Assembly (NCBI GenBank): GCA_013299055.1
Contig: JAAFKB010000004.1
Coordinates: forward strand, 1 to 64,000
Reading direction: 5' to 3'
Length of the DNA stretch: 64,000 nt
DNA from: Sphaerotilus sp.
GTDB taxonomy: Bacteria > Pseudomonadota > Gammaproteobacteria > Burkholderiales > Burkholderiaceae_C
Shown: piece by piece, positions 54,059-64,000 of the stretch
How the letters are laid out: every line of letters begins with the position of its first letter
Numbering within the stretch: the stretch's first letter is position 1
Program-made: the position numbers and the translations under genes
The notes under the pieces: generated by a model
What the model saw: the letters and a program-made list of their open reading frames with translations, nothing else
Database searches by the model: none
What the model was told of the DNA's origin: nothing

Positions 54059-55462
54059 TCAGCGCACCACGACTTCGCCGCGCAGCGAGTGCGGCAGCGC
54101 GCTCAGGATGCTCACGTCCAGCATCTGCCCGACCAGCCGCGCCGGGTTCGGGCCACCAGGGAAGTTGACGATGCGGTTGCACTCGGTCCGGCCCATCAGC
54201 TCGGTCGGATCCTTGCGGCTCGGGCCTTCGACGAGGATGCGCTGCACGGTGCCGACGCGGCTCTGGCTGATGCGGCGCGCGTTCTCTTCGATGGTGGCTT
54301 GCAGGTGCTGCAGACGCTTGAGCTTCACGTCGGCCGGCGTGTCGTCGTGCAGCGCGGCAGCGGGCGTGCCCGGGCGCGGGCTGAAGACGAAGCTGAAGCT
54401 GGAATCGAAGCCGATGTCCTCGATCAGCTTCATCGTGCGGGCATGGTCGTCCTCGGTCTCGCCGGGGAAGCCCACGATGAAGTCGGTCGACAGGCTGATG
54501 TCCGGCCGCACTGCGCGGATCTTGCGGATCGTGCTCTTGTACTCCAGCACCGTGTAGCCACGCTTCATGCCCGAGAGGATGCGGTCGCTGCCGTGCTGCA
54601 CGGGCAGGTGCAGGTGGTTCACGAGCTGCGGCACCTTGGCGTAGACATCGACCAGGCGCTGCGTGAACTCGTTCGGGTGGCTGGTGGTGTAGCGGATGCG
54701 CTGGAGGCCAGGGATTTCGGCGACGTACTCGATGAGCATCGCGAAGTCGGCGATCTCGCTGGTGCCACCCATCTTGCCGCGGTAGGCGTTGACGTTCTGG
54801 CCGAGCAGCGTGACCTCCTTGACGCCTTGGTCAGCCAAGCCGGCCACTTCGGTCAGCACTTCCTCGAACGGGCGGCTGAATTCCTCGCCGCGGGTGTAGG
54901 GCACGACGCAGTACGAGCAGTACTTCGAGCAGCCTTCCATGATCGAGACGAAGGCGGACGCGCCCTCCACCCGCGCCGGGGGCAGGTGGTCGAACTTCTC
55001 GATCTCGGGGAAGCTGATGTCCACCTGCTGGCGGCCGAGGCGTCTGCGCTGCTCCAGCAGCTGGGGCAAGCGGTGCAGCGTCTGCGGCCCGAAGACCACA
55101 TCCACATACGGCGCGCGCTCGATGATGGCCGCACCTTCCTGGCTCGCGACGCAGCCGCCCACGCCGATCATCACGCCCTTGGCCTTGAGGTGGCGCACGC
55201 GGCCGAGGTCGCTGAAGACCTTCTCCTGCGCCTTCTCGCGCACCGAGCAGGTGTTGAAGAGGATCAGGTCGGCCTCTTCCGGGTCATTGGTCGGCGTGTA
55301 GCCCTCGGCGGCGTGCATGACGTCCGACATCTTGTCCGAGTCGTACTCGTTCATCTGGCAGCCGAAGGTGCGGATGTAGACCTTCTTGCCCGCCGTGTCG
55401 GGCGTGGCAGGGGCCAGGTCGGGGGAAGCGGAAGACAGGGTCAGGGTGTTGTCGGTGGTCAT
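54059..55462 (-). CDS. miaB: tRNA-2-methylthio-N6-dimethylallyladenosine synthase
   Basis: A 467-residue radical-SAM methylthiotransferase that modifies A37 of tRNAs reading UNN codons. The N-terminal UPF0004 domain has [29 protein letters not shown] and [11 protein letters not shown]; the radical-SAM motif is [17 protein letters not shown], followed by a C-terminal TRAM domain ([20 protein letters not shown]). An N-terminal extension of about 25 residues precedes the core. Confidence 0.96.
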
Positions 55463-55993: not shown

Positions 55994-56389
55994 ATGCGAT
56001 TCGGCCGTACGAGTAGCAAGCAGCGGGGCGACCCCGTGCAGGAACGCATCGACTGTCTCGTGGGCGCAGGCACCACCGTGACGGGCGATCTGACCTTCGC
56101 GGGCGGCCTGCGCATCGACGGCCGCGTCGAGGGCGACGTGGTCGTCTCGTCCGTGGTGCCGGGCACGCTGGTGATCGGTGACGAGGGCAGTGTGGCGGGC
56201 GACGTGCGCGTCTCGCACCTGATCGTGTTCGGCCGCGTGCTGGGCACGGTCTACGCGAGCGGACTCGTGGACCTGCGCGCAGGGGCCCAGGTGGATGGCG
56301 ACGTGCATTACGGCGCGATCGAGATCGACAAGGGCGCGGTGGTCGAAGGCCACCTGGTCAAACACAAGACGGCGGGTGCCATCCAATGA
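55994..56389 (+). CDS. Bactofilin
   Basis: A 131-residue bactofilin, a cytoskeletal protein that forms filaments by beta-helix stacking. After a short N-terminal tail, IDCLVGAGTTVTGDLTFAGG, LRIDGRVEGDVV, LVIGDEGSVAGDVRVSHLIV and AQVDGDVHYGAIEIDKGAVV give the short repeated turns of the fold. ATG 55994 gives a standard N terminus; an ATG at 55934 is in frame but adds an unusual His/Trp/Gln stretch. First gene of a nine-gene run whose junctions mostly overlap; the stop overlaps the next ATG. Confidence 0.9.
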   Translation: MRFGRTSSKQRGDPVQERIDCLVGAGTTVTGDLTFAGGLRIDGRVEGDVVVSSVVPGTLVIGDEGSVAGDVRVSHLIVFGRVLGTVYASGLVDLRAGAQVDGDVHYGAIEIDKGAVVEGHLVKHKTAGAIQ

Positions 56390-57048
56390 GCGGAGTTCAG
56401 TCGTTGATCGGGGGATCGGACCCCCTGTTCGTGTTCACCCCGGCCGGCCGTCTGGACTGTCCGGCCGACACGGAGGTGCAGGAGGCGTGGCGCCACTTCA
56501 CGGTGCAGGTCGCGCGCGATCCGCTCGACCTCGAAGCCCACACCCGGCGCGTGCTGCTGGCCAGCCGTCCGCCGCTGACGGACCGCGCCTTCGGGGCGCT
56601 GATCGATCTGTTCCTGGCCCTTGGCGGCCGGGGACGCGGGCTGCGCCGGCAGCTGCTGGAGCAGGCCATGCCGTGGCTTGACCCGGACGACGCACATTTC
56701 CTGCGTCTGCACCTCGACACCGAGCTGCCCCGCGGCGCGCAACTGCCCTCGCAACGCTGGTCCGTGCTCGACACGGCCGTGCTCGGCTCGCTGCGCATGG
56801 TCGACCTGCAGCGCCGGGAGGTCGCCCAGGAGACGCCGTTCCAGCAGGCCATGTCGTTACTGGAATATGGAGATCTGGCGGGCGCGCGTGGCATGCTTGA
56901 GGCCGCGCTGCTGGAAGAGCCGGACCATGAGGAGGTCAACCGCGAGCTGCTGGCGATCTACCAGCACAGCCGGGACGACGCCGGCAAGGCCGCGATGGCC
57001 GAACAGCTCGTGGCACGCCACGGCGCGCTGCCTGCGGGTTGGGCTTGA
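56386..57048 (+). CDS. Helical repeat (TPR-like) protein of the GTPase/roadblock operon
   Basis: A 220-residue cytoplasmic protein without signal peptide. The C-terminal third contains a TPR-like pair resembling the end of FimV proteins (AMSLLEYGDLAGARGMLEAA, LLEEPDHEEVNRELLAIYQH). The middle (FGALIDLFLALGGRGRGLRR) is also helical. No catalytic motif. It is coupled to the bactofilin gene by ATGA and to the next gene by an overlapping TTGA, suggesting a scaffold in the same complex. Confidence 0.75.
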   Translation: MSGVQSLIGGSDPLFVFTPAGRLDCPADTEVQEAWRHFTVQVARDPLDLEAHTRRVLLASRPPLTDRAFGALIDLFLALGGRGRGLRRQLLEQAMPWLDPDDAHFLRLHLDTELPRGAQLPSQRWSVLDTAVLGSLRMVDLQRREVAQETPFQQAMSLLEYGDLAGARGMLEAALLEEPDHEEVNRELLAIYQHSRDDAGKAAMAEQLVARHGALPAGWA

Positions 57049-58742
57049 GACGTTTCGAGACGCCTCAAGCAGACAGCCCAGCCGATCGAACTTTGACCTT
57101 GAGCCTGTCGTCAGTGGAAGCCACCAAGCTGCAAACCCGATTGAAGGTAGTCCTTCTGTCCATGCCTCCGCGCACCCAGGCGGTGCTGGATTTCTTTTTC
57201 TCGAGCACAGGGCGCAGCAGCTTCGCGCCCTCGACCGAAGACCAGGCCGACGTGGCCATCTTCGATTTCGACACGCTCGAATCGCGCCAGCACTGGGAAG
57301 CCTGGCACGGCCGCCGTGGCGGGCCCGGCATCGCGCTGTCCACCCAGTCGCAGGAGGTGGTCTCGGCGATCTGGGTGCAGAAGCCGGTGACGCCGGCCGC
57401 CCTGCTGGCGGCGGCGGCCGAGCTGCGCACCCGCCGCTGGAGCACCGCTCCCGTCGCCGCCCCTGCCGCCGTGGAGGCCGTGTCTGCGCCCATCCCCGCA
57501 GCGCCAGCCCCGGTCCCGGCACAAGTGCCAGCGCCTGCGCCTGCGCCTGCTGCGCCCCCAGTCGCTGCGTCCACCTGGGTCGAGACACCGGTGCCTGCAC
57601 CGGCTCGGCCGGCAGCGGCCCCGCGTCCGGTGGCGACACCCCTTCCTGCGCCAGCTCCCAGTGGTGGCCTCGGTGGGCTGTTCCGGCGCTTGTTCGGCAA
57701 GGGCGATCCCGCCCCGGTGCCGGCTCCTGCCCCTGCACGGGTGGCCGCTCCAGCGCCAGCGCCAGCGCCTGCTCCCGTGGTGGCCGCCCCTGTTCCTGTC
57801 CCCGCACTGGCCCCCGTCCCAGTGCCGGTGCCCGCTCCCACGCCGGCCCCTGTCCCGGTGCCAGCCCCCGCCCCTGCTGCCAAGGCCCCCGCTCCCGCCC
57901 CTGCGCCGGCCCGCCCGGCGCCTCGGCCGGCTCCCGCGCCAGCACCTGTTCCCGTGGTGGCCAAGGCGCCGCCGCCCGCCCCGAGTCCCGAGCCCCTGGC
58001 CGCTCTCGTCTTCGATGCCCACGGCCACCGCCGCTCCCGTCCGGAAGAGCTGCTCGACGAGGCCCGCTACTGCGGACTGCGCGCCGATGTCGCCGACGTG
58101 TCCCAGCTTGCCGATACCAGCCTGCGCTATGACCCCGCCCAGCACCTGGTCGGCGTGCTCAAGGACGCTTACCTGGTGAGCTGCAAGTGGCAGGTACCGA
58201 CCCACCTGGACGGCCCGGTCGGCCGCATCACCGTCGACGGCACGACCAACCTGATCTACTGCGAGTTCTCCGCCGAGCAGCTCGCCAGTCTGGTTGGCAA
58301 GCCGCTGGACAAGCGCCCCAAGACCCGCGCCTTCAGCCGCCAGGAGTTCGCCGATCTGCAAGGTACGCTGGAGCAGAAGGCGCTGGTGCAGCGGCTCGAC
58401 CATGTGCTGTGGCAGACCGCGCTGGAGACCTCGGCGGGCAGGCTGCCCGTGGGCGTCGATCCGGCCACGACGGTCTACCTCAAGCACTGGCCCAACCTGA
58501 CCCGTCTGCACCGCACGCCGCACGCTTTGCGCATTGCAGCGCTGTGGACCACCAAGGGCGCAGGGTTGCTGGAGACGGCCCAGACCCTCAAGATCGCCCA
58601 GCGGCATGTGTTCGCGTTCTACAACGCTGCGCTGGCGCTGGACCTGATCACCGAAGACGGCGCGCAAGTCCGCAGGGCACAGCGCAAGACCAAGAACAAT
58701 CGGGGTCTGCTGACCCGCCTGTTCGGCTGGCTGAACAAATAA
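57045..58742 (+). CDS. Pseudo-receiver protein with long Pro/Ala linker
   Basis: About 565 residues; the start is uncertain (TTG 57045 overlaps the preceding stop; TTG 57093 and GTG 57114 are alternatives). The N-terminal ~110 residues look like a response-regulator receiver fold (LKVVLLSMPPRTQAVLDFFF, VAIFDFDTLESRQHWEAW, WVQKPVTPAALLAAAAELRT). It keeps the Lys-Pro, but the acidic pocket is poorly matched. Residues ~125-325 are almost pure Pro/Ala/Val repeats. The C-terminal ~240 residues are globular: HRRSRPEELLDEARYCGLRA, HLVGVLKDAYLVSCKWQVPT, and a helical end finishing TRLFGWLNK. No family is recognised for that part. Confidence 0.75.
   Translation: MRRFETPQADSPADRTLTLSLSSVEATKLQTRLKVVLLSMPPRTQAVLDFFFSSTGRSSFAPSTEDQADVAIFDFDTLESRQHWEAWHGRRGGPGIALSTQSQEVVSAIWVQKPVTPAALLAAAAELRTRRWSTAPVAAPAAVEAVSAPIPAAPAPVPAQVPAPAPAPAAPPVAASTWVETPVPAPARPAAAPRPVATPLPAPAPSGGLGGLFRRLFGKGDPAPVPAPAPARVAAPAPAPAPAPVVAAPVPVPALAPVPVPVPAPTPAPVPVPAPAPAAKAPAPAPAPARPAPRPAPAPAPVPVVAKAPPPAPSPEPLAALVFDAHGHRRSRPEELLDEARYCGLRADVADVSQLADTSLRYDPAQHLVGVLKDAYLVSCKWQVPTHLDGPVGRITVDGTTNLIYCEFSAEQLASLVGKPLDKRPKTRAFSRQEFADLQGTLEQKALVQRLDHVLWQTALETSAGRLPVGVDPATTVYLKHWPNLTRLHRTPHALRIAALWTTKGAGLLETAQTLKIAQRHVFAFYNAALALDLITEDGAQVRRAQRKTKNNRGLLTRLFGWLNK
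57480..57970 (+). repeat. Pro/Ala/Val low-complexity coding repeat
   Basis: Imperfect GCNCCN-type coding repeats giving alternating Pro-Ala/Pro-Val dipeptides for roughly 160 residues, with only short interruptions. Such segments form stiff extended linkers. The nucleotide repeats are degenerate, so this is not a perfect tandem array. Confidence 0.8.
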
Positions 58743-58765
58743 GCCAAACACGCCAAAGAAGCAAC

Positions 58766-59302
58766 ATGGCCCAAACCGACCACAAAATCATCTTCACCGG
58801 ACCCGTCGGTGCAGGCAAGACCACGGCCATCGCCTCGATCAGCGACATCGAGCCGATCCGCACCGACGAACACGCGTCGGACATGACCCAGAAGCGCAAG
58901 AACGCCACCACCGTGGCGATGGACTACGGAATGATCCGTCTGGGGCCGAAGGAGAAGGTCCACCTGTACGGCACGCCCGGCCAGGAACGCTTCGACTTCA
59001 TGTGGGATATCCTCACCAAGGGCGGCATCGGGCTGGTGCTGCTGCTGGACAACACGCGCCCGACGCCGTTCGAGGACATGCGCTTCTACATCAAGGCGTT
59101 CAAGGAATTCATCGACGGCACCCGGCTCGTGATCGGCGTGACCCAGATGGACGCCCGCGCGACGCCGACGATCGACGAGTACGTGCGCCAGCTGGCCGAA
59201 CTCGATGTCACCGCGCCCGTCTTCGAGGTGGATGCCCGTCAGCGCACCGATGTCTCGGCGCTGATCGAGGCGTTGCTGCTCCAGATCGACCCGACCCTCT
59301 GA
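58766..59302 (+). CDS. Small Ras-like GTPase (MglA/CvnD-like)
   Basis: A 178-residue GTPase of the COG2229-like group. G1 is GPVGAGKTT (12-20), G3 is YGTPGQERFDF (~69-79), G4 is the variant TQMD (~126-129) in place of NKxD, and EVDARQ may be G5. The switch region carries TVAMDYGMIRLG. Related proteins act as molecular switches: MglA in Myxococcus polarity, and CvnD in Streptomyces conservons. The Roadblock/LC7 gene two positions downstream would be the expected regulator. Confidence 0.9.
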   Translation: MAQTDHKIIFTGPVGAGKTTAIASISDIEPIRTDEHASDMTQKRKNATTVAMDYGMIRLGPKEKVHLYGTPGQERFDFMWDILTKGGIGLVLLLDNTRPTPFEDMRFYIKAFKEFIDGTRLVIGVTQMDARATPTIDEYVRQLAELDVTAPVFEVDARQRTDVSALIEALLLQIDPTL

Positions 59303-59325
59303 CCCGGTAACTTCCCGCGCCACCC

Positions 59326-59967
59326 ATGGACCATTACACCCTCACTGGCGAGTTCTACCTCCACCCGACGCCGGCGGGTGCCTACTACGCGGCCAGCCGT
59401 CCGACCCGCGATCCGGCCCGCCTGTTCCTGCAGCGCCTGCTGCGCGAGTCCGAGACCCCGCGCCTGACCGCCGACCTGGTGCAGGACTGGATGTCCATGG
59501 GCCAGCAGGATGCGCTGGAGTTCATCTACCGCCTGCAGTCCTCCGGCTTCGTGCAGGGCCTGCCGATGCACGTCGAGGTGCCACCCGACTCGATCGAGGC
59601 CATGCTGCCGCCGCTGCTGGCGCAGCTGTCCGATGAAGGCAAGGCGATCCTGGCCGACAAGCGGGGTCTGTACCTGGGTACGTCGGGCTTCGCGCACGAG
59701 ACGGCGGAAGAGCTTGCTGCGCTGGGCGGCGACCTGGCCAGCGTCCATGAGCGCCACTCGAAGCTGCTCCACGGCAACATGCGCCTGCGCAGCGACGGCT
59801 GGGGCATGGTCAACGCCGCCGGCTACTGCGAGGTGGGGTTCTGGCCGCTCTACTTCGGCGACGACTACTTCATCCTCATCGTCGGTGGCATGCCGCGTTT
59901 CAACCAGGAAGCCTTCACCACGCTGGTGTGGACCCTGGGCGTGCGCTACGGCAACACCGCGATCTGA
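59326..59967 (+). CDS. Unknown protein, possible winged-helix plus roadblock-like fold
   Basis: A 213-residue cytoplasmic protein. The N-terminal part (LFLQRLLRESETPRLTADLV, DALEFIYRLQSSGFVQGL) reads as a winged-helix-like unit. The C-terminal ~100 residues (GKAILADKRGLYLGTSGFAH, LRSDGWGMVNAAGYCEVGFW, YFILIVGGMPRFNQEAFTTL) have the alternating strand pattern and hydrophobic core expected of a Roadblock/profilin-like fold. Assignment is tentative. It starts 24 bp after the GTPase gene, so it is a good candidate binding partner. Confidence 0.6.
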   Translation: MDHYTLTGEFYLHPTPAGAYYAASRPTRDPARLFLQRLLRESETPRLTADLVQDWMSMGQQDALEFIYRLQSSGFVQGLPMHVEVPPDSIEAMLPPLLAQLSDEGKAILADKRGLYLGTSGFAHETAEELAALGGDLASVHERHSKLLHGNMRLRSDGWGMVNAAGYCEVGFWPLYFGDDYFILIVGGMPRFNQEAFTTLVWTLGVRYGNTAI

Positions 59968-60030
59968 TCCGCACCCATCCGATCCGACCCCGTCCCCCGA
60001 TCTCCCCATTTCTCTCGAAGGAATTGCCCC

Positions 60031-60393
60031 ATGCGTGAAGAGCTGCTGAACTCGATCCTGAGCGAACTCAACGGATCCACCGCCGACATCGAAGCTTCGG
60101 CCGTCCTGTCCACCGATGGCCTGATGATGGCCTCCATGCTGCCCGCTGGCATGGACGAGGACCGCGTGGGCGCGATGAGTGCCGCCATGCTGTCGCTGGG
60201 TGACCGCACTTCACGTGAACTGGCCCGTGGCGAGCTGGAGCAGGTGCTGGTCAAGGGCGCCAAGGGCTATGTCCTGATGACCTACGCCGGCAAGGACTCG
60301 GTGCTGACGGCGCTGTGCAAGCCGAACTCGCGTCTGGGTCTCATCTTCCTGGACGTCAAGCGCGCCGCCGACGCCATCAGCAAGGTCATCTGA
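60031..60393 (+). CDS. Roadblock/LC7 domain protein
   Basis: A 120-residue single-domain Roadblock/LC7 protein: VLSTDGLMMASMLPAGMDED, VGAMSAAMLSLGDRTSRELA, LEQVLVKGAKGYVLMTYAGK and SRLGLIFLDVKRAADAISKV. Members dimerise and regulate small GTPases (MglB, CvnB). AAGGAA lies upstream of the ATG. Its position near the GTPase gene strongly suggests they work together. Confidence 0.92.
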   Translation: MREELLNSILSELNGSTADIEASAVLSTDGLMMASMLPAGMDEDRVGAMSAAMLSLGDRTSRELARGELEQVLVKGAKGYVLMTYAGKDSVLTALCKPNSRLGLIFLDVKRAADAISKVI

Positions 60394-60424
60394 TCGGCCT
60401 GTCGAGATCGAGGGCAAGCATTCG

Positions 60425-60922
60425 ATGATGACCGATATGAGCGTGGCGGATCTGGTGCCGGCGGACTCCCGCCGTGACCTGGTACTCCGCTTCCATGATG
60501 GGCGCAGCCGGCGTGTGCTGGTGGTCGACCAGGAGGTGCCGTATCCGGACGGCAAGCTGATCGTCTCGCGCACGGACCCGGCCGGCATCATCACGCACGC
60601 CAACCAGGCGTTCGTGGACATGTCCGGCTACGAACGCGACGAGCTGATCGGCGAGAGCCACTGCATCCTGCGCCACCCGGACATGCCGGCGTCGGCGTTC
60701 CGCGACCTGTGGGACACGGTCGGGCGCGGCGGCAAGTGGCAGGGCTATGTGAAGAACCTGCGCAAGGACGGCACCCACTACTGGGTCTTCGCCACGGCCA
60801 TCCCCAACGTCCGCGAAGGGCGTGTCGTCGGGTACACCTCGGTGCGCCGCAAGGCCTCGCGCACCAAGGTCAACGAATGTGCGGCGCTGTACGCCCGACT
60901 GCGCGCCGAGGAGCTGAAGTGA
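60425..60922 (+). CDS. Aer-type PAS domain protein
   Basis: A 165-residue protein; a second ATG at 60428 is equally possible. The single PAS domain reads LIVSRTDPAGIITHANQAFV, DMSGYERDELIGESHCILRH, PDMPASAFRDLWDTVGRGGK, WQGYVKNLRKDGTHYWVFAT, very close in pattern to the FAD-binding PAS of the Aer aerotaxis receptor. It lacks the HAMP and signalling domains, so it must pass its signal to other proteins. The stop overlaps the next GTG start. Confidence 0.9.
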   Translation: MMTDMSVADLVPADSRRDLVLRFHDGRSRRVLVVDQEVPYPDGKLIVSRTDPAGIITHANQAFVDMSGYERDELIGESHCILRHPDMPASAFRDLWDTVGRGGKWQGYVKNLRKDGTHYWVFATAIPNVREGRVVGYTSVRRKASRTKVNECAALYARLRAEELK

Positions 60923-61668
60923 CCCTGGAACTGACCGTCAGCCCCGACTTCTCGCCCGAGCACATCGCCGGCTGGTACGTCTTCAACACCTGGCTGCAGC
61001 GCAAGCTGGGCGTGCGCATCCACCTGGAGCTGTACGAGGACTTCACCGCCCAGCGCCAGGCGATCGCCACCGACCGGGTGGACCTGATCTACGCCAACCC
61101 CTACGACGCTGCCATGCTGGTGCGCGAGAAGGGCTTCGTGGCCATCGCCGCACCGCAGGGCAAGACCGACGAGGTGGTGATCGCCGTGCCGGCAGCATCG
61201 CCGGTGCAGTCGGTCGAGGAACTCCAGCCCGGCCTGCGTCTGGCCGTGACCCGCGACCCGGACGTGAACCTGATCGGCATGATCCTGCTGGAGTCGGCGG
61301 ATCTGGACCGTGACAACATCCTGACGCAGCAGGTGTCCACCTACGTGGTGCTGGCGCGCACGCTGCTGCAGGGCAAGGCCGACTGCGGCTTCTTCCTGAA
61401 GGAGGCGTTCGACGACCTGAGCGCACCCATCCGCCGCCAGCTGCGCCCGCTGATGACCAGCCAGATCAGCCTGGTGCGCCATGTGCTGCTGGTCGGGCCG
61501 CGCTGCGCCGCGCTGCGCGAGCCGCTGCAGACGCTGCTGCTGGGCATGGCGATGCCAGGCTCGGACGGCCGCGCCACGCTGCAGGCGCTGGGCCTGAGCG
61601 GCTGGGACAAGCAGGACCAGGAGGACACCGAATTCATGATCGACCTGATGGACACCTTGATGGTGTGA
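60919..61668 (+). CDS. PhnD-like periplasmic-binding-protein fold, no signal peptide
   Basis: A 249-residue protein with a GTG start overlapping the PAS gene stop (GTGA). It resembles the phosphate/phosphonate-binding PhnD/SsuA type: FNTWLQRKLGVRIHLELYED, TDRVDLIYANPYDAAMLVRE, VQSVEELQPGLRLAV, ADCGFFLKEAFDDL. There is no N-terminal signal peptide or lipobox, and no ABC transporter genes are adjacent, so it is probably cytoplasmic and used for sensing. Ligand unknown. Confidence 0.8.
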   Translation: MTLELTVSPDFSPEHIAGWYVFNTWLQRKLGVRIHLELYEDFTAQRQAIATDRVDLIYANPYDAAMLVREKGFVAIAAPQGKTDEVVIAVPAASPVQSVEELQPGLRLAVTRDPDVNLIGMILLESADLDRDNILTQQVSTYVVLARTLLQGKADCGFFLKEAFDDLSAPIRRQLRPLMTSQISLVRHVLLVGPRCAALREPLQTLLLGMAMPGSDGRATLQALGLSGWDKQDQEDTEFMIDLMDTLMV

Positions 61669-62819
61669 ACACGCACATGCTGCCACCTCCCCTGAAGCGT
61701 TCCCTCCTGACCCTTGCGCTGGCCGTGTCGGCCGGCCCGGTCCTGGCCCAGGCGGCGCCGTCTAGCGCCGGTGCGCCCGCATCGGCTTCTGCGCCAGCGA
61801 CGACCCAGCGCACCACGGTGGAGCAGGACAACCTCTGGGACATCGCCGGCCAGCTCGCCCCCACGCTCGGGGCCACGCGCCAGCAGGTGATGGTGGCGGT
61901 GCTGCGCCGCAATCCGGACGCCTTCGTCAAGGGCAACATCCACCGGCTGCGCCGTGGCGTGCCGCTGGTGCTGCCGGGACGGGCGCAGGTACTGGCCGAG
62001 GACCGTGCGCTGTCGGTGGCGCTGGTGGCGGACCATCTCAAGGCGATGCGCGGTGGACAGGTGCTGGCGCCGCTGCCACCGGTCTCCGCTGCCTTGACCG
62101 GGACTGTGCCGGCGACCCCGGTGGTCCCCCCGGCCGTGCCTGCACCGGCATCGGCCCCGCCGCCGGCCGCACCCTCTGCCACGCTGCCGGCCAAGGTTCC
62201 AGCCCCGGCGTCGGCTGCGTCGGTGGTCGCACCGGCTCCGGCATCCGCTCCAGCGTCTGCTCCGGTCGCTGCTCCTGCGTCTGCGGTCGAGCAGCCTGTG
62301 GCGCCGGCTTCCGCCAACCCGCCCGACACCCGCCCGAGCGACGCCGCTGCCGATGTCCCGGATGCGGCGTCGGCGGCGGGCGGCAGCGGGGCGGTGCCTG
62401 CGGTGCTGCCCTGGCTGCTGGGGCTGGGGGCGGTGGCGGGCGGGCTGATCCTGTGGCGCCGTCGGCGTGCCGGGTTCCAGCCCGATGCACCGGCCCAGCC
62501 CGATTTCAGCCCCACGCTGAGCGCCACCCGCTCGGGTGGCCCGCGCGTGTTCGACATCTCGAATGCCGCGGCTGAAGTGGCCCGTTCGGTGGAAACGTCG
62601 CGGGCGGCCACCCAGCTCGTGCGCAGCGAGCAGTCGCCTGTGGACGAAGTGGATGTCGCCCGGATCGTGGAGCAGGCGGCCATCAAGCTGGAGATTGCCC
62701 GCGCCAGTCTGGACGTGGGGCGCACGGACGCTGCGCGTGCGCTGCTGCAGGCGGTGGTGCGCGAAGGCTCAGGCCGCCACGCTGCCGAAGCGGCCGAAAT
62801 CCTCGCCCGCCTCGGCTGA
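61665..62819 (+). CDS. Short FimV/HubP-like polar landmark protein
   Basis: A 384-residue protein starting with GTG 61665 (GTGA overlap); ATG 61677 is an alternative. Order: signal peptide (LLTLALAVSAGPVLAQAA); a FimV-type N-terminal/LysM-like region (DNLWDIAGQLAP, VMVAVLRRNPDAFVKGNIHR, LRRGVPLVLPGR); a Pro/Ala-rich periplasmic stretch; one membrane segment (VLPWLLGLGAVAGGLILW, ~247-264); and a cytoplasmic end with the FimV C-terminal motif KLEIARASLDVGRTDAARAL. Full-length FimV/HubP proteins organise cell poles and type IV pili; this is a compact version. Confidence 0.85.
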   Translation: MNTHMLPPPLKRSLLTLALAVSAGPVLAQAAPSSAGAPASASAPATTQRTTVEQDNLWDIAGQLAPTLGATRQQVMVAVLRRNPDAFVKGNIHRLRRGVPLVLPGRAQVLAEDRALSVALVADHLKAMRGGQVLAPLPPVSAALTGTVPATPVVPPAVPAPASAPPPAAPSATLPAKVPAPASAASVVAPAPASAPASAPVAAPASAVEQPVAPASANPPDTRPSDAAADVPDAASAAGGSGAVPAVLPWLLGLGAVAGGLILWRRRRAGFQPDAPAQPDFSPTLSATRSGGPRVFDISNAAAEVARSVETSRAATQLVRSEQSPVDEVDVARIVEQAAIKLEIARASLDVGRTDAARALLQAVVREGSGRHAAEAAEILARLG

Positions 62820-62836: not shown

Positions 62837-63616
62837 TCAGATCAGCTTGCGGGGCGAAAACTGGCGCGCCGCCGGGGTCTGCTCCGCGACCCGCACGGCC
62901 CGCGTCAGCACCTGGTCGGCATCGATCGGCCCCAGCGCCTCGCACAGCGCCACGTAGAACTGGTGGACCAGCTGCGACAGCTCGGCCGCCGTCCCGTCCA
63001 TCACCCAGGCGGCCTGCATCGGCTGGCCCCAGGCATCGCGCACCTGCTTGCGCAGGCCTGGTGACAGGCGGCTCTGGTCGAGCTGCTCCAGCGCGCTGCT
63101 GCGCAGGTCGGACACCGTGCCGGCATGGAAGCGCTGTACCTCGGTGAGCGCGCTGCGCAGCAGCTCGGCGCAGACAGCCCGCTCCGGTGGCAGTGCCGAC
63201 ACCGGCGGTGGCGCGGGGACTGCCGGTGCCGCCGCCGGAGCGGCCTGCATGGCGGTGGCCACGGGCTGCAGCGCCGCCGCGGAGGCTGCGACGGGCGGCG
63301 GTGGTGCGGGCACCGGCGGTGGTGCGGGGGCCGGTGCGGTGCCGATCTGCATCAGCGGCCACGGGTCCATCGGCAGCTCGCTTTCGGGCTGCTTGAGCGC
63401 CTTGTAGTAGGCCTCGTAGAGTTTCTTGCGGCTGGCAGCGTCGATGTTGTGGCGCGCCGCTACCTGGTCGATGTAGCCGATGATGTCCGAGACCGCGTCG
63501 CCGCGCATCGACTGGTGCTGCAGGCGCAGCGCGTCCAGCAGCGCGTCCTCCTCCAGCAACGGCGACAGCACGGCATAGGCGGCGCGGCGCCGCTGGGACA
63601 GGGCTTGGGTGGCCAT
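62837..63616 (-). CDS. Protein of unknown function with Pro/Ala linker
   Basis: A 259-residue protein without signal peptide. An N-terminal helical domain (residues ~1-90: AYAVLSPLLEEDALLDALRL, DIIGYIDQVAARHNIDAASR) is joined by a Pro/Ala-rich linker (~100-160) to a second helical domain (CAELLRSALTEVQRFHAGTV, LSQLVHQFYVALCEALGPID). No family recognised. It starts 4 bp after the ammonium transporter gene on the same strand and converges on the FimV-like gene with a 17-bp spacer. Confidence 0.7.
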   Translation of the reverse strand: MATQALSQRRRAAYAVLSPLLEEDALLDALRLQHQSMRGDAVSDIIGYIDQVAARHNIDAASRKKLYEAYYKALKQPESELPMDPWPLMQIGTAPAPAPPPVPAPPPPVAASAAALQPVATAMQAAPAAAPAVPAPPPVSALPPERAVCAELLRSALTEVQRFHAGTVSDLRSSALEQLDQSRLSPGLRKQVRDAWGQPMQAAWVMDGTAAELSQLVHQFYVALCEALGPIDADQVLTRAVRVAEQTPAARQFSPRKLI

Positions 63617-63620
63617 GCGC

Positions 63621-64000
63621 TCAGCCTTCCTTGTGCAGCTGGCCCGGCGAGTTCTGGAACTCGGGGTAACCGATCTCGTGGTGCTCGGTGTAGTCGAGAC
63701 CACGCTGCTCGTTCAGGGTCGGCGCGCGCAGGCCGATGAGCTTGTCCACCAGCTTGAAGCAGACATAGGCCATCGGGAAGGCCCACGCAAAGGCGGCCAC
63801 CGCACCCAGCGCCTGCACCATCACGCGGCTGCCGTTGAACATGTCACCTTCGAAGAACAGACCAGCGGCCAGCAGTCCCCAGGTGCCGCCCAGACCGTGG
63901 ACCGCGATGGCGTCCACAGTGTCGTCGATGCGGCGCTTGCGCAGGGCTTCCGCACCCCAGGTACACAGCACACCGGCGATGAGACCAGTCAGGATGGCAG
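63621..64000 (-). CDS. amtB: Ammonium transporter, C-terminal part (5' end outside window)
   Basis: The frame runs to the window edge, so only the last ~126 residues are seen. ILTGLIAGVLCTWG, DDTVDAIAVHGLGGTWGLLA (including the pore-region VHGLGG) and FAWAFPMAYVCFKLVDKLIG match the final membrane helices of AmtB. A cytoplasmic tail follows (EQRGLDYTEHHEIGYPEFQN). Family members conduct ammonia at the inner membrane and are gated by GlnK; no glnK is in the visible part. Confidence 0.9.
   Translation of the reverse strand, partial: AILTGLIAGVLCTWGAEALRKRRIDDTVDAIAVHGLGGTWGLLAAGLFFEGDMFNGSRVMVQALGAVAAFAWAFPMAYVCFKLVDKLIGLRAPTLNEQRGLDYTEHHEIGYPEFQNSPGQLHKEG

Follow-up and report, generated by a model that had tools for sequence, protein, structure and literature searches.

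A Group 3 MglA-type GTPase locus of Sphaerotilus sp. with an Aer-type PAS protein, a binding-protein fold, a bactofilin and a second FimV

To our knowledge, the signals that tell bacterial Ras-like switches when to act are little understood outside a few models. The question is raised by a locus at positions 55994-62819 of the window, i.e., the 64,000-nucleotide stretch of contig JAAFKB010000004.1 (assembly GCA_013299055.1, Sphaerotilus sp.) that was analysed here. The assembly has a size of 4.09 Mb and is 83.8% complete. Nine open frames, all on the + strand, fill the locus. In order, they encode a bactofilin (gene 1), a protein with a TPR-like C-terminus (gene 2), a protein with a receiver-like N-part (gene 3), an MglA-type small GTPase (gene 4), two Roadblock proteins (gene 5, RobL, and gene 6, Rob), a PAS protein (gene 7), a PhnD-like binding-protein fold (gene 8) and a FimV/HubP-type protein (gene 9). 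The original prediction had joined these parts into one polarity or motility module. Its nine same-strand genes are borne out, and domain matches confirm the GTPase, Roadblock, bactofilin, PAS, binding-protein fold and FimV that it listed (Table 1). Missing from that list were the second Roadblock domain of gene 5, the receiver-like N-part of gene 3, the likeness of gene 7 to Aer and the probable cytosolic location of gene 8.

The reading preferred here, which is given somewhat less than an even chance, is that of an expanded Group 3 MglA/MglB system with redox and ligand inputs, which is positioned by FimV and bactofilin and controls surface machinery. The genera Sphaerotilus, Leptothrix, Thiothrix and Leucothrix are filamentous. 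The system may let some bacteria choose, in a manner not yet described, where and when they move or attach.

The GTPase-Roadblock core and its distribution

By motifs and neighbourhood, genes 3-6 are the published 'Group 3 MglA' arrangement. MglA is among the best matches of gene 4 in the PDB (E 3.1e-9). Among 69 GTPases (the window and 68 loci), G3 reads GTPGQ in 68 and GTSGQ in the remaining one, G2 has TTV, without Arg, in all 69, and G5 reads DAR in 66. G4 lacks Lys in at least 64 and has it in two. For MglA Groups 2-5, GTPGQ in G3 and Thr, not Arg, beside the G2 threonine are reported, and for Groups 2 and 3 a G4 usually without Lys and DAR in G5 (PMC4316618). In Group 1, the M. xanthus type, G2 carries an Arg finger and G3 reads TVPGQ (PMC4316618); this identity was considered and is ruled out by TTV in G2 and GTPGQ in G3. 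The reported Group 3 neighbourhood consists of an uncharacterised protein with a receiver-like N-part and a variable linker, MglA, and one or two MglB proteins (PMC4316618).

The locus thus shares with Group 3, as described in the available text of PMC4316618 and PMC11112851, the GTPGQ motif, a G2 without Arg, a G4 mostly without Lys, DAR, and a receiver-like protein with variable linker next to MglA and one or two Roadblock proteins, one of them distant. It differs from that text in the upstream gene 2, in the downstream Aer-type PAS protein and cytosolic binding protein, and in bactofilin and FimV. Since motifs and neighbourhood match Group 3 MglA, the core of genes 3-6 is not new, and the earlier statement that no system with this gene set had been described fails for these genes. 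It stands, within the available text of the source (PMC4316618), for the expanded set; no description of the expanded Group 3 form was found in the open-access literature, most subscription papers lying outside that search. The new points are the link to a predicted redox sensor and the pairing of bactofilin with FimV, added to a core that was already known; the missing signal peptide of gene 8 and the grouping of the operon with Thiotrichales, both described below, are likewise new.

A second comparison concerns the actinobacterial conservons (CvnA-D), which are likewise operons with a Roadblock protein and an MglA-family GTPase as a signalling unit. Their input is a histidine kinase, whereas the nine proteins here gave no kinase domain match; gene 7 matches kinase models through its PAS domain only. 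A conservon identity is therefore ruled out.

In gene 6, an Asp-Gly pair is conserved in 81 of 81 sequences. Gene 5, with its sub-threshold match to the Roadblock family, was modelled with AlphaFold2 (predicted local distance difference test, pLDDT, 91.5). From about residue 90 the model shows a helix, two strands, a helix, three strands and a helix, and residues 87-210 superimpose on Roadblock 3kye (Z 12.2, root-mean-square deviation, rmsd, 3.0 over 107) and on MglB 6h5b (Z 11.0, rmsd 3.0 over 110). According to the model, gene 5 carries a second Roadblock domain. This agrees with the distant Roadblock protein mglB-1 described from the mgl locus of Snodgrassella (PMC11112851). A domain-model search with the window's gene 3 protein gave no match. 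The model of its ortholog at L108:6519-7676 (pLDDT 80.3) indicates that the N-terminus is receiver-like (residues 11-128; 3crn, Z 13.3, rmsd 2.1 over 107). Lys-Pro is present in 71/71 and Asp 76 in 62/71 gene 3 sequences; the length of gene 3 varies from 352 to 989 amino acids (51 loci).

These two proteins bear on the main rival explanation, namely that the output is transcription. Gene 3, and perhaps the N-part of gene 5, would bind DNA, a switch fed by the PAS and binding proteins would control a regulon, and FimV and bactofilin would merely be co-expressed. Wuichet and Sogaard-Andersen proposed a transcriptional role for Group 3 from a winged-helix C-part of the neighbour protein that was predicted by Phyre2 (PMC4316618), and it would fit the helices that the L108 model shows close to its end and the gene 5 model in its N-part. 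The fold searches, however, gave no winged helix; their matches are occupied by the receiver domain of gene 3 and the Roadblock domain of gene 5 and leave the C-part of the former and the N-part of the latter uncovered. FimV and bactofilin also recur inside the locus itself. The transcriptional reading is considered unlikely, and a surface output is preferred.

All nine genes occur in the same order in 11 of 11 relatives from Sphaerotilus and Leptothrix with a complete stretch; a twelfth contig covers genes 3-9. The arrangement is thus conserved far beyond one strain; a strain-specific oddity, which would have spoken against the original prediction by its own standard, is ruled out. The nearest named relatives of gene 6 are found in a Sphaerotilus metagenome-assembled genome (MAG; 99%) and in S. 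natans ATCC 13338, Leptothrix sp. C29 and a Pseudomonadota MAG (98%), followed by a Burkholderiaceae MAG (94%) and by L. discophora and S. hippei (93%). A match to the GTPase was obtained for 12/12 congeners and, over the whole search of 60 genomes (own included), for 19 genomes from 7 of 48 genera. The gene 6 subfamily (E <=1e-30) is rare and patchy, with six of 398 genomes, own included, in a phylum-wide draw. Outside the genus, relatives come from Thiothrix, Thiolinea, Thiofilum, Leucothrix, Cocleimonas, Thiocystis, Methylomonas, Methylobacter, Amphritea and many MAGs.

Neighbourhoods were counted in L083-L162 (80 loci, mostly gammaproteobacteria), i.e., the best 80 of at least 543 confirmed relatives in a gene 6 scan of named genomes; L029 and others of L027-L038 repeat some of them and are not counted. 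Each count covers only the loci with enough flank, and the profiles start from the window genes, with iteration over these same loci. RobL is found near gene 6 in 76/79 eligible loci, the GTPase in 68/79, gene 2 in 61/63, and the C-part and N-part of gene 3 in 73/76 and 65/67. PAS (44/69), binding protein (40/64), bactofilin (34/63) and FimV (27/56) are less constant. Judged from these occurrence counts around gene 6, genes 2-6 are a near-constant core and genes 1, 7, 8 and 9 are additions. The idea of a single nine-gene module holds insofar as the genes are kept together, but the core of genes 2-6 is accompanied by separable additions, PAS with binding protein and bactofilin with FimV. In another 20 regions from relatives of the same order, GTPase, RobL and Rob stand together in 17, the binding protein is present in eight (L187-L194) and an adjoining PAS gene in three (L187-L189); L206 has one distant PAS match on the other strand. 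The blocks of L187 are permuted yet contiguous, and those of L040 are also rearranged and still together. With the order kept in 11/11 relatives, and largely in other classes, the arrangement is not due to chance.

A second, more distant GTPase of this family (35-49% identical) is carried by six genomes: the congeners G001 (L043), G005 (L044), G010 (L045) and G006 (L047), and also G009 (L046) and G055 (L042). These second GTPases (L042-L047) stand without other operon genes. L043 and L041 share one kind of small protein, which in L041 lies next to the only such GTPase of G027. In L041 it has a sub-threshold LAMTOR5 match (E 0.04) and is perhaps another Roadblock-like partner.

A FastTree tree was calculated from the joined GTPase, RobL and Rob sequences of 88 loci (510 columns, midpoint root), all tips being relatives of the locus. 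The window, the Sphaerotilus/Leptothrix loci, L090 and L091 form a group of 10 tips (support 1.0), which sits in a 47-tip clade (0.997) together with 35 Thiotrichales-type loci and two gammaproteobacterial MAGs. Sixteen other loci of the same order form a separate clade (0.945), and L040, L187 and L190 branch outside both. In this sequence tree the operon groups with Thiotrichales rather than with most relatives of its own order, and a transfer between the gamma- and betaproteobacterial classes is likely. The direction of transfer is not fixed, because the deep supports are mixed (0.095 to 0.66).

Candidate inputs: genes 7 and 8

The best PDB matches of gene 7 are Aer (E 1.3e-43 and 1.6e-43), followed by the sensor PAS 3ewk (2.1e-36); the next match is only at 4.9e-15. 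In the structure of Aer, flavin adenine dinucleotide (FAD) is contacted by H53, R57, W70, N85 and R115 (PMC9668731). These align to H79, R83, W96, N111 and R141 of gene 7. All five contacts are conserved in 50/50 operon copies of the PAS gene (47 selected by a position rule, with L084, L091 and L128 added by hand), and none of five other PAS matches outside the operon, one of them just upstream of a lone Rob in L148, has all five. The position of Aer M69 is mostly Leu in the operon copies, and the distant copy in L040 has Gln at the position of H53. From the conserved contacts we infer that gene 7 binds FAD. Its 165 amino acids gave only PAS matches, without a HAMP or chemoreceptor signalling domain. 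Gene 7 shares the FAD contacts with Aer, and the lack of HAMP and signalling domain with CetB, the stand-alone PAS protein of the bipartite Aer system of Campylobacter. It differs from both in that the nine genes include no chemoreceptor partner, its neighbour being a Roadblock/GTPase switch. By sequence, gene 7 is a stand-alone Aer-type PAS protein, and as such new to the Group 3 setting.

The best solved relative of gene 8 is PtxB (E 6.5e-9), with a weaker match to a PtxB-like 'Aio...' protein. The PF12974 fold is shared with PhnD/PtxB-type binding proteins and AioX-like sensors. Different from these, gene 8 has no signal peptide, and no ABC transporter genes are among the nine. When hydrophobicity was scored over any possible N-terminus of each protein, the most hydrophobic 10-residue stretch was at most 1.35 in 52/53 model matches of the binding protein and at least 1.88 in 41/41 FimV controls; the exception above 1.35 is L148, a weak match (E 6e-4) away from Rob. 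As it has no signal peptide, gene 8 is probably cytosolic, and an ordinary exported binding protein is ruled out by the missing hydrophobic N-terminus.

PAS and binding-protein domains are separated by a median of 11 bp (50 loci). It is improbable, in our judgement, that genes 7 and 8 form an independent pair of sensors which owes its place in the operon to shared expression and leaves the GTPase unaffected. Both genes are absent from many loci and one relative's gene 8 is broken, as this explanation would expect; nevertheless, they adjoin gene 6 in distant relatives with rearranged blocks (L040, L187), and additional binding-protein copies lie between RobL and Rob in L124 (3460-4173) and L139 (2071-2784). 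Together with a second binding-protein gene behind the first one in L039 (5899-6621), L188 and L191, these extra copies suggest that the PF12974 fold works with the Roadblock proteins.

Bactofilin, FimV and the predicted output

Gene 9 has a signal peptide, seen as a hydrophobic N-terminus, and a transmembrane-like segment at residue 246. Only one FimV was found in the window's incomplete assembly, yet 12/12 congeners have two, and gene 9, the second of these, was rejected as a sole FimV. The other copy has 894-950 codons in 11 congeners and 489 in one. Among the 51 loci in which both flanks are long enough, 27 have bactofilin and FimV (19 with PAS and eight without), one has bactofilin only, none has FimV only and 23 have neither (18 with PAS and five lacking all three). 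By these counts, the additions of bactofilin and of a second FimV to the core go together. In the Sphaerotilus/Leptothrix loci, as in L090, L091, L112 and L128, the bactofilin gene is co-directional; wherever else it occurs, it is divergent.

Four Leucothrix-type loci (L104, L116, L120 and L125) carry two tandem FimV genes directly after Rob, in place of PAS and binding protein.

Bactofilin and FimV could also stand for adhesion or for the form of sheath or envelope, rather than for pilus polarity: the two proteins (FimV being LysM-like and peptidoglycan-binding) would organise the wall and the GTPase would time this work. Their joint presence in the Sphaerotilus/Leptothrix and Thiotrichales loci fits, as does the shaping of cells by bactofilins in other bacteria (PMC10945521). 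About half of the loci, however, keep the core without bactofilin and FimV, which rules out wall work as the function of the core, and this explanation is given only a small chance.

For the preferred reading, pilus or polarity control, the following chain of events is proposed. The GTPase of gene 4 would be switched by the two Roadblock proteins, genes 5 and 6. Gene 7, by means of FAD, would sense the redox or energy state, and the cytosolic protein of gene 8 would read a small ligand, perhaps an anion; both would bias the Roadblock proteins and hence the GTPase, without a chemoreceptor or kinase. In its GTP-bound form, gene 4 would recruit the TPR-like protein of gene 2 and the receiver-like adaptor of gene 3 to a site marked by the dedicated FimV of gene 9 and scaffolded by the bactofilin of gene 1. 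The output would be where or when surface machinery works. In M. xanthus, MglA-GTP acts on type IV pili via the TPR protein SgmX (PMC7519303), and in Snodgrassella, whose mglA belongs to Group 3, an evolved mutation in an orphan mglB altered spreading at the colony edge and colonisation (PMC11112851). Because of these two precedents, type IV pili are the likeliest target; the genome carries PilT-family ATPases, three of them above cut-off. The M. xanthus module shares a small GTPase and a Roadblock protein with the locus and has a TPR effector where the TPR-like gene 2 is found here; it differs by its Group 1 catalytic motifs, by the lack of a comparable single operon and by having neither PAS nor binding protein. 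By analogy, we infer a contact between GTPase and Roadblock proteins, inputs through PAS and binding protein, positioning by FimV and bactofilin, and an output on pili or polarity. Doubtful, if possible, is the more specific version in which the Aer-type FAD sensor and the cytosolic PhnD-like sensor control the GTPase/Roadblock switch directly and kinase-free, and the cassette was passed between gamma- and betaproteobacteria together with bactofilin and FimV.

Several observations weigh against the pilus or polarity reading. It is built on sequence and prediction, and binding, localisation and phenotype are all predicted. The core persists in loci without PAS (25/69), binding protein (24/64), bactofilin (29/63) or FimV (29/56). 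All eight Amphritea loci (L141, L145, L149, L151, L153, L157, L159 and L160) have no GTPase between genes 3 and 5; among seven Amphritea genomes searched for it, five have the GTPase elsewhere and none was found in two. L137, L148 and L154 hold Rob without RobL, GTPase and gene 3, which does not fit a simple picture. In the congener G008 (L028 6265-7221), an insert of about 1 kb interrupts gene 8; it carries a 318-amino-acid frame that, judged by eye, looks like an IS1595-type transposase. Genes 3 and 5 may contain DNA-binding domains. The co-occurrence of bactofilin and FimV is confounded by kinship, and no probability is attached to the count because the loci are related and not independent. 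The operon region has eight terminator-like sites versus 2.5 expected (both strands), and with several of them internal a single transcript remains a prediction; a consensus promoter scan of the same region gave 0 sites.

If the preferred reading is true, redox sensing is joined to a GTPase switch in a way that bypasses the chemotaxis pathway. One operon would then combine a likely input, the Aer-type sensor, with the switch, its candidate effectors and the parts that position it. The operon recurs in S. natans ATCC 13338, L. discophora, S. hippei and several Thiothrix, which opens the path from energy sensing to surface behaviour to experiment; both S. natans and L. discophora are cultivable.

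Gene layout

The coordinates of the nine genes and of the flanking frames are given in Table 1.

Table 1. Open frames of the locus and its flanks, with the matches that define them
Feature	Description	Position	Strand	Matches and remarks
Left flank	miaB	54059..55462	-	UPF0004, Radical_SAM and TRAM (Pfam)
Gene 1	Bactofilin, 131 amino acids	55994..56389	+	PF04519 E 1.9e-25, 89.4 bits (cut-off 27.9)
Gene 2	TPR-like C-terminus, 220 amino acids	56386..57048	+	sub-threshold TPR_19 15.5 bits, TIGR02521 15.9 bits
Gene 3	Receiver-like N-part, Pro/Ala-rich linker, conserved C-part	57039..58742	+	start may be TTG at 57045
Gene 4	MglA-type small GTPase, 178 amino acids	58766..59302	+	PF00071 (Ras) E 1.2e-7, 31.9 bits (cut-off 21.6); small_GTP E 5.7e-9
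Gene 5 (RobL)	Helical N-part and second Roadblock domain, 213 amino acids	59326..59967	+	Robl_LC7 sub-threshold, E 0.083
Gene 6 (Rob)	Roadblock/LC7, MglB-like, 120 amino acids	60031..60393	+	PF03259 E 1.4e-16, 60.4 bits (cut-off 23)
Gene 7	Stand-alone Aer-type PAS, 165 amino acids	60425..60922	+	PAS_3 59 bits (cut-off 25.6)
Gene 8	PhnD-like binding-protein fold, 249 amino acids	60919..61668	+	PF12974 E 2.5e-42, 145.4 bits (cut-off 27)
Gene 9	FimV/HubP-type, 384 amino acids	61665..62819	+	FimV_core 61.8 bits (43.45), FimV_Cterm 32.6 bits (30.65)
Right flank	Open frame	62837..63703	-	Pfam search of 62837-63616: no match

Four 4-bp overlaps and a possible fifth had been counted at the gene junctions; the actual number is three certain overlaps, between genes 1/2 (ATGA at 56386), 7/8 (GTGA at 60919) and 8/9 (GTGA at 61665), and a possible one between genes 2/3 (TTGA at 57045). 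Gene 3 ends with its stop at 58742 and the ATG of gene 4 is at 58766, a gap of 23 bp. The other gaps are 23 bp between genes 4/5, 63 bp between genes 5/6 and 31 bp between genes 6/7.

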